DNA of 64,000 nucleotides, from NCBI RefSeq assembly GCF_031851795.1, contig NZ_CP134696.1:2775001-2839000 (forward strand). Reading direction: 5' to 3'. The DNA comes from Pontibacter sp. G13. Lineage in GTDB: Bacteria > Bacteroidota > Bacteroidia > J057. The notes under the pieces are model-generated. The model searched no databases and was not told the origin of the DNA. It saw only the letters and a list, made by a program, of their open reading frames with translations. The position numbers and the translations under genes are program-made. Of this stretch, positions 4,636 to 55,742 are shown piece by piece (the first letter of the stretch is position 1; the number at the start of each line of letters is the position of its first letter).

Positions 4636-4770
4636 ATTCCCCGTACTTAGCTCCCGAATTCCCTGATTCCATAATCATTGTTCAAACTTCAATGTTTAAA
4701 CATCGTTATTTGAATCATCCATTCGGACCACAGGGGTCTGGATGTGGAATCAGAATAACCCACACTGACA

Positions 4771-5392: not shown

Positions 5393-5426
5393 AAAGGGAC
5401 TGTCTCCACAAAGAGGCGGTCCCTTT
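5393..5426 (+). terminator. Probable terminator of the YceI gene
   Basis: AAAGGGAC (5393-5400) pairs with GTCCCTTT (5419-5426) around an 18-nt loop, followed by TGTCTTTG. It begins 29 bp after the stop codon. Confidence 0.55.
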
Positions 5427-5441
5427 GTCTTTGATTGGGGA

Positions 5442-5631
5442 GATTTGGGCGTGTCCCGGCGGGCTGGCACCGGGTTCCTCGCAGGACAGGAAAGTCGCCG
5501 GGTCGCTCCCTTCCATGCTCGTTGGCACTCGGTCTGGGATCTGCGGGCGATAGATCGCCACCCGCAGATCCCAGACTCCGCCTAAGGGCGGCCATTCCAG
5601 GCAGCTCACGCCTCACCAACCAGCCGCACAT
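5442..5631 (+). repeat. Dispersed structured element, copy 1
   Basis: First of six copies of a roughly 200-bp intergenic element. It starts GATTTGGGCGTGTCCCGGCG and ends in CAGCCGCACA. Two stems are visible: CCCGGCG (5455-5461) with CGCCGGG (5496-5502), and a perfect 16-bp hairpin (5532-5547 with 5561-5576) around the near-conserved loop CGATAGATCGCCA. The conserved bases GCTCG and CGGTC precede this hairpin and GACTCC overlaps its end. No coding potential is evident. Multicopy structured intergenic elements of this sort are known in Bacteroidota; membership of a named family was not tested. Confidence 0.8.
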
Positions 5632-31246: not shown

Positions 31247-31463
31247 AGTATTTGGGCGTGCCCCGGCGTGCTGAGTTGAATCGTTCCGCTTGGCAAAAGA
31301 GTCGCCGGGTCGCACCCTTCCGGTCTACGCTGGCGCTTCGGTCGGCGGCATCCATGAAAACCCGTCTCATGGTCGTACAGGCAGAATGATGGCCAAGGGG
31401 ATCTTTTCACGTCTCACCGACTACACCTTCAGGCTGCTCACGCCACACCCACCAGCCGCACAG
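31247..31463 (+). repeat. Dispersed structured element, copy 2
   Basis: It begins TATTTGGGCGTGCCCCGGCG and ends CACCAGCCGCACAG. The first stem is intact (CCCGGCG 31262-31268 with CGCCGGG 31303-31309). The GCTTCGGTCGG context is present, but the central hairpin of copies 1, 3 and 5 is replaced by an unrelated sequence of about 80 bp. It lies right after the dnaK terminator and points toward the five-unit array, opposite in orientation to copy 3 on the far side. Confidence 0.7.
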
Positions 31464-31593: not shown

Positions 31594-33605
31594 GTCGATC
31601 GGGGATATCTTTAAGGCATGGTATCATAACATCTCCCCAAAATAATTCTGCGTCATCCCGTAAAATTTCGGAGGGCTGGGACCTGTGGACGGGGAAATTT
31701 ATACGGGATCTCAAGCCTCGTGCATGTCAGGGCTTGTCTTTTGGCTAGCGCGAGCATGCACTTCTTGTGGGCTCCTTGAATGAAAAAGAAGCCCACTCCA
31801 CATGCCCCCTTGGCGATTTTCCCGGATGCCAGCCAAGTTCGGGGAGATTCCACCTCTGCCCCCGACACGCGGGCCTCGGCCCATGGCAGGCTGGAATGAC
31901 GGTTCTTTTTTTCATGTGCTCAGCCCTCCGGGCGCCCAATCACGCATCCTGTTGCAGGGAGGTGAGATCCCTGACTAAATCCCGCTGCGCACCGATGCCA
32001 ACTCGGGGGCTTGGTTGTCGATCGGGGATATCTTTAAGGCATGGTATCATAACATCTCCCCAAAATAATTCTGCGTCATCCCGTAAAATTTCGGAGGGCT
32101 GGGACCTGTGGGCGGGGAAATTTATACGGGATCTCAAGCCTCGTGCATGCCAGGGTTTGTTTTTTGGCAAGCGCGAGCATGCACCTCTTGTGGGCTCCTT
32201 GAATGAAAAAGAAGCCCACTCCACATGCCCCCTTGGCGATTTTCCCGGATGCCAGCCAAGTTCAGGGAGATTACACCTCTGCCCCCGACACGCGGGCCTC
32301 GGCCCATGGCAGGCTGGAATGACGGTTCTATTTTTCACGTGGCCAGCCCTCCGGGTGCCCAATCGCGACTCCTGTTGCAGGGACGTGAGATCCCTGATAA
32401 ATACCACTGCGCACCGATGCCAACTCGGGGACTTGGGTGTCGATCGGGGCTCTCTTTAAGACTAGGTATCATGTCCCCAAAATACTTCTGCGTCATCCCG
32501 TAAAATTTCGGAGGGCTGGGACCTATGGGCGGGGAAATTTATACGGGATCTCAAGCCTCGTGCATGCCAGGGTTTGTTTTTTGTCAAGCGCGAGCATGCA
32601 CCTCTTGTAGGCTCCTTGAATGAAAAAGAAGCCCACTCCACATGCCTACTTGGCGATTTTCCCGGATGCCAGCCAAGTTCAGGGAGATTCCACCTCTGTC
32701 TCCGACACGCGGGCTTCGGCCCATGGCAGGCTGGAATGACGGTTCTATTTTTCATGTGCTCAGCCCTCCGGGCGCCCAATCGCGACTCCTGTTGCAGGGA
32801 CGTGAGATCCCTGATAAATCCCGCTGCGAACCGATGCCAACTCGGGGACTTGGGTGTCGATCGGGGCTCTCTTTAAGACTAGGTATCATGTCCCCAAAAT
32901 AGTTCTGCGTCATCCCGTAAAATTTCGGAGGGCTAGGACCTGTGGACAGGGAAATTTATACGGGATCTCAAGCCTCGTGCATGCCAGGGTTTGTTTTTTG
33001 GCAAGCGCGAGCATGCACCTCTTGTGGGCTCCTTGAATGAAAAAGAAGCCCACTCCACATGCCCCCTTGGCGATTTTCCCGGATGCCAGCCAAGTTCAGG
33101 GAGATTCCGCCTCTGCCCCCGACACGCGGGCCTCGGCCCATGGCAGGCTGGAATGACGGTTCTATTTTTCATACGCTCTGCCCTCCGGGCACCCAATCGC
33201 GACTCCTGTTGCATGGCAAGGTTTCATAACATATCCCCAAAATACTTCTGCGTCATCCCGTAAAATTTCGGAGGGCTGGGACCTGTGGACAGGGAAATTT
33301 ATACGGGATCTCAAGCCTCGTGCATTCCAGGGCTTGTCTTTTGGCAAGCGCGAGCATGCACTTCTTGTGGGCTCCTTGAATGAAAAAGAAGCCCACTCCA
33401 CATGCCCCCTTGGCGATTTTCCCGGATGCCAGCCATGTGCAGGGAGATTACACCTCTGCCCCCGACACGCGGGCCTCGGCCCATGGCAGGCTGGAATGAC
33501 GGTTCTATTTTTCATACGCTCTGCCCTGCGGTCGCCCAATTGCGACTCCTGTTGCAGGGACGTGAGATCCCTGATAAATCCCACTGCGCACCGATGCCGA
33601 CGCAG
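31594..33605. repeat. Tandem array of five ~420-bp units
   Basis: Five direct repeats start at about 31594, 32017, 32439, 32856 and 33213. The landmark TCTGCGTCATCCCGTA recurs at 31647, 32070, 32487, 32904 and 33247 (spacings 423, 417, 417 and 343; the short one reflects loss of the end of unit 4). Each unit contains strong hairpins: ATCCCGTAAAATTT (31655-31668) with the 31695-31709 arm; GTGCATGC with GCATGCAC (32153-32160, 32177-32184); GTGGGCT with AGCCCAC (32190-32196, 32213-32219). Both strands are open over 70-150 codons in most units, with no start-site signal, codon pattern or known domain, so I do not call genes. Identity between units is very high, implying recent expansion. Confidence 0.9.
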
Positions 33606-33636
33606 AGATTTTCAGAGATGAGGCAACGTACACTAG

Positions 33637-33829
33637 AGGTGCGGCTGGCAAGTGTGGCGTGAGGTGCCTGTAGTGGCCGACCATCGGGAGGAGTCGGTAA
33701 TCGGGTGGCGGCGATCTATCGCCACCCGATTACCGACCGAGCGATAGCGAGCACGCAAGGGACCGACCTCGCGAATATCTTGACTAAGCAGGACCCAAAT
33801 ACTTTGAACGCGGGGGCACGCCCAAATCA
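33637..33829 (-). repeat. Dispersed structured element, copy 3
   Basis: A reverse-oriented copy with the outer end GATTTGGGCGTGCCCCCGCG (reverse strand) at 33829 and the CAGCCGCACCTC-like end near 33637. The outer stem pairs CCTCGCG with CGCGGGG, and the central hairpin is a perfect 18-bp stem (33693-33710 with 33720-33737, arm GTCGGTAATCGGGTGGCG) around GCGATCTAT. Flanks match copies 1 and 5 although the stem sequence is entirely different. With copy 2 it brackets the five-unit array as inverted copies. Confidence 0.8.
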
Positions 33830-38384: not shown

Positions 38385-38608
38385 AATGTGCGGCAGGTTG
38401 TGCGGCGTAAGGGATGGGAATGGTGCTGCCCAAGCAGCAGTCCGAGGGAGGAGGATGATCGGAGGAGTAGGCTGTCCAGCGCTCAATATCTATTTTTTGA
38501 GCCTCTCACCCGAGGACGGAGCATCGCGAACCCATGGATCAGCCCGGCCCCGCGACGCAAATCCCGAGCGAGAAACGGAGGTTCCATTCGCGGGGATACG
38601 CCCTCCCA
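38385..38608 (-). repeat. Dispersed structured element, copy 4
   Basis: A reverse-oriented copy of a second subtype shared with copy 6. The outer stem is CCCCGCG (38548-38554) with CGCGGGG (38589-38595), where copies 1, 2, 5 and 6 have CCCGGCG/CGCCGGG, so two bases changed on both arms together. In element orientation it contains CTGATCCATGGGTTCGC, GCTCCGTCCTC, GGACTGCT and CACCATTCCCATCCCTTACG, then CTGCCGCACATT. It lies just past the 164-bp array. Confidence 0.7.
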
Positions 38609-55285: not shown

Positions 55286-55482
55286 GATTTGGGCGTATCC
55301 CGGCGAATCTGGGCCTAGACATGTCGCTTGGCACCAAGGTCGCCGGGCCGGTCCCGCTACATGGCTCGCTAACGCTCGGTCGAGAATCTGTGGGCGAGAG
55401 ATCGCCGCCCACAGATTCTCGACTCCTCCTGACGTCGGACCATTTCGGGCACCTTACGCCGCTGCAAGGCCATCCGCACCTG
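55286..55482 (+). repeat. Dispersed structured element, copy 5
   Basis: The outer stem is CCCGGCG (55299-55305) with CGCCGGG (55341-55347). The central hairpin is a perfect 18-bp stem (55379-55396 with 55406-55423, arm GTCGAGAATCTGTGGGCG) around AGAGATCGC. It begins GATTTGGGCGTATCCCGGCG 14 bp after the LptF/G stop and is the forward partner of copy 6. Confidence 0.8.
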
Positions 55483-55568: not shown

Positions 55569-55742
55569 TCAGATGTGCGGCAGGTTCGTGCGGTGTGAGG
55601 GATAGGAATGGTGCGACCCTGAGGGAGCAGTCCGGAGCTCGCGGAGGACGGAGCGCCAGCGAACCCATGGATTAGCCCGACCCGGCGACAGACCTGTCTG
55701 GAACGCACACATTTGCCAAGCTCGCCGGGACACACCCAAATC
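55569..55742 (-). repeat. Dispersed structured element, copy 6
   Basis: A reverse-oriented copy of the subtype seen in copy 4. The outer end is CGCCGGGACACACCCAAATC at 55723-55742 (reverse complement of the common start), with the stem CCCGGCG (55681-55687) and CGCCGGG (55723-55729). It faces copy 5, so the outer ends of the pair form a 20-bp inverted repeat over about 460 bp. The gap between them (55483-55568) holds no gene. Confidence 0.75.

Follow-up and report, generated by a model that had tools for sequence, protein, structure and literature searches.

A dispersed, six-helix structured element in the genome of Pontibacter sp. G13 and its apparent kinship with the Flavo-1 motif

Among the described systems closest to the element reported here is Flavo-1, which Rfam lists as an sRNA. 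A table of PMC2864571 marks it as an RNA ('y') that is not cis-regulatory ('n'), and the table of abundant sRNAs in a review leaves its function blank (PMC9029176), while PMC9723704 places the Flavo-1 hits of F. psychrophilum sense and antisense to transcribed regions alike, with many hits outside them. Two kinds of mobile sequence are also comparable, namely the REP/BIME/REPIN group, in which a REP is a hairpin of 20-40 nt with a 5' GTAG/GTGG foot, and the MITEs of transposons with terminal inverted repeats (TIR). For the Bacteroidetes, the relevant portion of PMC6006769 describes a TnpA-REP subclass, 2.6, with atypical flanking structures. The element of Pontibacter sp. G13 resembles REPs, BIMEs and REPINs in being intergenic, multicopy, folded on one strand and arranged in inverted heterotypic pairs, but it is ~190 nt long, multi-branched with six helices, and without a GTAG/GTGG foot. 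Like a MITE it is short, non-coding and dispersed and has a sharp edge; its ends (TTTGGGCG.. and ..CCGCAC), however, are not terminal inverted repeats, and no target-site duplication was found in single copies (65 of the 78, those whose right end was recognised) or in 36 pairs. With subclass 2.6, as far as the description in PMC6006769 allows a comparison, it shares the phylum and atypical folds with dispersed copies, whereas among 32 Y1_Tnp loci it has a strong match near one and a weak match near another. The likeness to Flavo-1 lies in a GGGAU..AGCCC helix with an inner hairpin, present in the short type of the element and in relatives elsewhere, in the dispersal and in the occurrence in Bacteroidota. 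The differences are that the closing stem P1 and the hairpin P6 of the family lie outside the 76-nt Rfam model, that the long type has a remodelled centre, and that this one genome holds at least 150 copies.

The window, i.e., the whole stretch of 64,000 nucleotides that was analysed (contig NZ_CP134696.1, positions 2,775,001 to 2,839,000), contains six full-length copies according to R1, a covariance model built from 76 copies of the genome; E-values of R1 and of a second model, R2, are rough, coming from a short calibration. Three copies are of the long type and belong to the R1 training set: copy 1 (5443..5629, 187 nt, folded strand minus; 198.6 bits, E 7.6e-37), copy 3 (33639..33827, plus; 190 bits) and copy 5 (55287..55479, minus; 173.8 bits). 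Copy 2 (31250..31461, minus; 95.6 bits) is of a ~212-nt type with a different centre, and copy 4 (38388..38607, plus; 68.9 bits, R2 E 0.0044) of a ~220-nt type. Copy 5 turns its 5' end towards copy 6 (55575..55741, plus; 96.9 bits, R2 E 9.7e-8), which is of the short type with a Flavo-1-like core GTGTGAGGGAT...AGCCCGACCC and is the link between the window copies and the wider family. In copy 1, all parts of which are read on the minus strand, the closing stem P1 joins a 3' arm at 5447..5453 (GGGCGTG on the plus strand) to a 5' arm at 5607..5612 (CACGCC on the plus strand), both identified by sequence and by covariation over 76 copies. The P6 hairpin occupies 5455..5502, with a covarying stem (5455-5461 with 5496-5502) and a hypervariable loop (5462-5495); P4, at 5532..5576, has double changes in 12 of its 20 pairs; and a small hairpin CCGCC/GGCGG, P3, was recognised by eye at 5578..5591, where the alignment is ragged and it is unscored. 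Pfam identifies only ordinary proteins (YceI, S41 peptidase, LptF/G and a Cys/Met PLP enzyme) in four neighbouring genes of copies 1 and 5. In copy 1, the only copy checked, there is no intrinsic terminator, terminator-like sites lying outside it at 5393-5426 (plus) and 5342-5327 (minus). The 5' GTGCG of the element resembles a group II intron; a search of copy 1 against Rfam for domain V returned no group II row up to E 10.

The fold was derived from an alignment (A1) of 76 of the 78 copies found with a pattern of conserved element parts, leaving out those at 3102949 (other centre) and 7333032 (insertion). The copies in A1, as well as the relatives in a second alignment (A2), were found by patterns, and columns fixed by a pattern are uninformative; the covarying columns were free. 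RNAalifold on A1 gives 44 pairs in six helices, namely the closing stem P1 (GGCGTR/YACGCC), P2, P2b, P4, P5, and P6 with a hypervariable loop of 36 columns. Standard pairs fill 98.8% of 3335 cells, compared with 84.7% in shuffles, double changes occur in 28 of the 44 pairs, and the covariation score is 0.394 against 0.121 in shuffled and at most 0.075 in slid alignments; a single pair of the P6 stem is G-C in 40 copies, C-G in 20 and A-U in 12. The analysis shows a closed multi-branch fold, kept by compensatory change, in which P1 encloses P2 with P2b, P4 and P5 inside and then P6. On the folded strand, G·T outnumbers A·C among non-standard cells by 64 to 10 (p 9e-11; one near-invariant G·T loop column is left out of this count), and by column pairs the ratio is 14 to 5 (p 0.06). 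This points to selection acting on one single strand, be it RNA or ssDNA, a claim that rests mainly on P4 because this helix supplies most of the excess (47 to 2).

The central hairpin is helix P4 of this ~188-bp folded element, on the strand opposite to the one initially taken as the element's sense. The initial annotation had drawn attention to it because its arms seemed unrelated between copies 1, 3 and 5 and were nevertheless perfectly paired. The three hairpins indeed lie at 5532-5576, 33693-33737 and 55379-55423, with 16, 18 and 18 uninterrupted Watson-Crick pairs, respectively, and the flanks (CGGTC/GACTCC) and the hairpin loop are conserved as it had described. The arms, however, are related, having GTC...GAC and frequently ATC in common and a mean identity of 0.57-0.74 (four similarity bins holding 2691 of the 2850 copy pairs, with at most 60 pairs sampled per bin), and the 'element sense' it adopted is the wrong strand for the fold, the folded strand being its complement. 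Genome-wide, a 45-nt hairpin with arms paired in register is present in 71 of the 78 pattern copies; it measures 44 nt in four and 46 nt in two, where a one-nucleotide bulge, seen by eye, breaks the simple register comparison, and the copy at 3102949 has no such hairpin. That the structure is under selection, one of the two readings originally offered, is strongly supported by the covariation across the 76 aligned genome copies, and for far more than a single hairpin. The other reading was a palindrome remade by the mobility mechanism itself; template switching, or gene conversion between the two arms, could do this without selection. The P4 arms, which vary greatly yet stay paired, are what such a process would leave, but covariation is also seen in P1, P2 and P6, whose strands come from separate parts of the element, and wobble intermediates are present, nearly all of them on one strand; this one-strand G·T excess argues for selection on a single strand instead of self-copying of a palindrome, which we consider very improbable.

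The conserved-part pattern matches 78 times in the 7.67-Mb genome and its reversed control not once, and the same pattern, which is that of the long type, has no match in 59 other genomes (one of 60 matching, the own genome). R1 finds at least 150 copies (best 150 of 1940 candidates scored), and the sampled stretches hold 198 distinct elements in three size classes, i.e., 109 long, 39 short and 50 of ~200-245 nt. Ten arbitrarily placed 20-kb stretches contain eight elements, from which perhaps ~300 copies per genome can be extrapolated. Three copies at three different sites are 98-99% identical outside the loop; on their 3' side identity ends sharply at TTTGGG, with unrelated flanks beyond, and two of them have a further dispersed repeat in common on the 5' side. 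At the one orthologous site tested, all three Flavobacterium species carry an element; in one (locus L304, ~1118-1501) it is enlarged by three loop inserts, recognised by eye, and the outer stem remains. Some copies are old, since this site is occupied in all three species, in one of them with loop inserts.

The arrangement of the copies follows a rule in the sample of 198: all 22 pairs less than 300 nt apart, and 14 of the 19 pairs 300-2000 nt apart, face each other 5' to 5'. Different size classes are joined in 19 of the 22 close pairs and in 32 of the 36 facing pairs of both distance ranges, an excess of mixed pairs that is approximate, since the sample used for the size classes was gathered around high-scoring copies. 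Among 152 unpaired copies, 37 have other dispersed repeats next to them on the 5' side and three on the 3' side; because repeats adjoin the 5' side far more often, and because of the 5'-facing pairs, copies tend to bound repeat blocks with their 3' ends outward. Several such repeats can be named. One of the CCCTGAtAAATCCC type lies directly 5' of three elements (in the window at 33566-33624, and beside the copies at 4754 and 6232 kb); when the flanks of 196 elements are compared, GCCGAAATCC is present on the 5' side of 14 and the 3' side of none, GATAAATCCC on the 5' side of five and the 3' side of none, and AGCCGGATTA on the 5' side of 14. Between some 5'-to-5' pairs lie long repeat arrays that are by chance open in a frame (e.g., C1 801.6-803.2 kb and 5725.2-5726.5 kb).

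With respect to genes, which were called by a crude codon-usage caller, 10 of the 198 copies run into a predicted gene, and 11 more could not be placed. Convergent gaps hold 83 of the 177 copies with two called neighbours (47%), compared with 15% of background gap length and 18% of gap number, and divergent gaps hold 14, against 21% of background gap length. For 122 of the 177 copies, the neighbouring gene on the 5' side of the folded strand points towards the element. The fixed orientation to a gene that a cis-regulatory RNA would have was not found, codirectional gaps holding 39 sense and 41 antisense copies. Nor was there a clear bias towards one replication strand (42 leading and 36 lagging among 78 copies, with the skew switch at ~3.5-4 Mb) or a common neighbouring gene: among 285 predicted proteins around the 78 copies, the largest cluster has six members from four regions, with at most 52% identity.

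Membership of Flavo-1 (RF01705), which the initial annotation had named as an example of multicopy structured elements in Bacteroidota, stands for relatives of the same architecture and not for the copies in the window. The window has no match at the curated gathering score, there is no Flavo-1 row up to E 10 around copy 1, and four short-type loci of the own genome (L139, L142, L145 and L148) give none at E 0.01; by the Rfam threshold, Flavo-1 comprises 10 of the 18 sites found with the family pattern described next and, among 12 further loci, three, of which L147 is one. A family pattern consisting of the short-type core, the closing stem and the second hairpin matches 13 of 395 genomes of the phylum (control 0) and at least 119 stretches in genomes of named species, its carriers including Flavobacterium, Aquimarina, Algibacter, Pedobacter, Mucilaginibacter, Segetibacter, Niabella, Algoriphagus and others. 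Family members also lie on contigs of two metagenome bins labelled Spirochaetales (L195 and L261), by contamination or transfer. A position of P1 that the pattern leaves free is complementary in 113 of 113 relatives (60 G-C, 46 T-A, 6 A-T and 1 C-G) and in all 97 aligned in A2, from which 16 were omitted because they exceeded 118 nt, nearly duplicated another relative or were truncated at an end. Four pairs of A2 have double changes, which is not above shuffles (454 of 500 reach it) because most columns are fixed by the pattern; other measures exceed shuffles. R1, built from long copies of the own genome only, matches 6 of 30 outside loci at E <=0.01, from 1.9e-8 (L137) to 0.0043 (L147), and misses the other 24 up to E 1. 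R2, built from these relatives and run with strict filters on the best 44 candidates per genome, matches 16 of 90 genomes, i.e., 15 of 22 of the same class (7 without a match) and 1 of 68 of other classes, with 0 to at least 27 matches per genome, and reaches only E 0.19-0.29 on the three long window copies. The link between the long type of the window and the Flavo-1 family is real but thin, and the element is best described as a lineage-specific, enlarged branch of a family, found mainly in Bacteroidia, whose core Rfam calls Flavo-1. The available excerpts of PMC9723704, PMC2864571, PMC9029176, PMC6006769, PMC3733652 and PMC12306157 mention neither P1 nor P6 nor the pairing rule, and no description of the extended element was found in the accessible text of the open-licence literature.

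These observations are best explained by a non-autonomous, dispersed, structured mobile element, BIME- or REPIN-like, that is recognised as a folded single strand, a reading to which we give a probability of about 0.5. The fold, the strand on which it forms (mainly through P4), the dispersal and the 5'-to-5' rule in the sample are direct observations; the mechanism joining them would be as follows. An enzyme or RNP acting in trans would recognise the folded single strand, ssDNA or RNA, and copy or insert it, such that only copies able to fold would leave descendants; inserted copies would persist chiefly where they fall at the 3' end of a gene, and a new copy would preferentially enter at the 5' end of one already there. 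Against mobility speak the lack of target-site duplications mentioned above, that no empty site was found (among the genomes compared, the genus is represented by this one alone, and the one Flavobacterium site is occupied throughout), and that a mobilising gene was not found, each of Y1_Tnp, RVT_1 and IS110 being absent from some carriers. Few decayed long copies occur among the R1 matches listed for the genome, as could also be expected if every copy were under selection where it stands.

Such in-place selection is the substance of an alternative in which the folded strand is expressed as RNA, either under a promoter of its own or as part of 3' UTRs, and each copy is kept for the function of that RNA. 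The six-helix fold, the conserved closing stem and the one-sided wobbles look RNA-like, genes mostly read into the 5' side of the folded strand, and among the 78 pattern copies, counted first, those in codirectional gaps were more often sense than antisense (17 against 9). This lean, however, vanished in the larger sample of 177, a sigma-70-type scan, which does not cover Bacteroidota promoters and was applied to copy 1 alone, detected nothing promoter-like near that copy, and the indifference of Flavo-1 hits to transcribed strands in the F. psychrophilum passage (PMC9723704) also speaks against it, so that we regard a functional RNA as unlikely. Less probable still is a BIME-like chromosome element acting at the DNA level, with copies serving as binding sites or barriers between convergent genes. 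The enrichment in convergent gaps and the inverted, mostly heterotypic pairs would suit it, but wobbles on one strand are left unexplained if the element acts as double-stranded DNA or as a cruciform, and the numbers vary widely, both for the long-type pattern (78 here and none in 59 relatives) and for the R2 counts across the 90 genomes.

The hypervariable P6 loop invites the idea of a guide that matches the insertion site in the manner of a bridge RNA. The loop is saturated with change: its identity is 0.63 in copy pairs that are 90-95% identical elsewhere and 0.62 in random pairs, and two copies identical elsewhere differ in 21% of it. Nevertheless, 7-mers common to the loop and its own flanks are not in excess (27 direct and 17 complementary, with ~28 and 22 expected from the flanks of other copies), and a position-by-position search for matches or complements between loop and flank gave no clear outlier, given the thousands of windows compared (largest z 4.5, 30 permutations); these tests covered 76-78 copies with ~30-60 nt of flank per side, and matches shorter than a few bases would escape them. 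A guide loop is the reading to which we attach the least credence.

A broader proposal, possible although on balance we doubt it, extends the preferred reading of a mobile, strand-folded element to a Bacteroidia-wide mobile class whose members would move in the form of one folded single strand, served by an enzyme outside the known HUH, group II and IS110 types, and would build blocks whose heterotypic outer copies stand 5' to 5'. If this were true, Flavo-1 would be the core of a mobile element and not an sRNA family, Flavo-1 annotations would change their meaning, and the mobiliser of a strand-folded element would become a new search target. The invariable 5'-to-5' orientation of close pairs and the one-strand wobbles are testable clues to the mobility mechanism.

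As general mobilisers, Y1_Tnp (IS200/RAYT) is absent from 7 of 18 carrier genomes, RVT_1 (reverse transcriptase) from 3 of 10 and IS110 from 6 of 10, counts in which draft assemblies could hide mobiliser genes. Reverse transcriptase and IS110 were rejected as partners, being not universal and having no R2 match at E 0.01 in 21 loci (two of them own); R1, run on own loci only, places one copy near the own IS110 gene (L438). Copies were not found flanking TnpA-REP genes in the manner of REPs and REPINs: R1 gave no match beside the two own Y1_Tnp genes, and R2, run on 32 Y1_Tnp loci (the two own and 30 of the 46 Y1_Tnp matches in carrier genomes), gave one strong match (L327) and one weak (L333, E 0.022). 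In L327, the only strong case, an IS200-like gene lies ~190 bp from the element L136. The own genome encodes a RAYT-like Y1 transposase of 181 aa (motifs NHIH and YIHQNP; L105:1258-1803, minus strand, ~5488.6 kb), and, unlike a REP with its RAYT, the element is not what borders this gene, which is flanked on both sides by a repeated hairpin, GCGGACTTCCGGACCGTGYGCCGGCCTGCCGCG-AGTCCGC, representing a second REP-like family in the genome.
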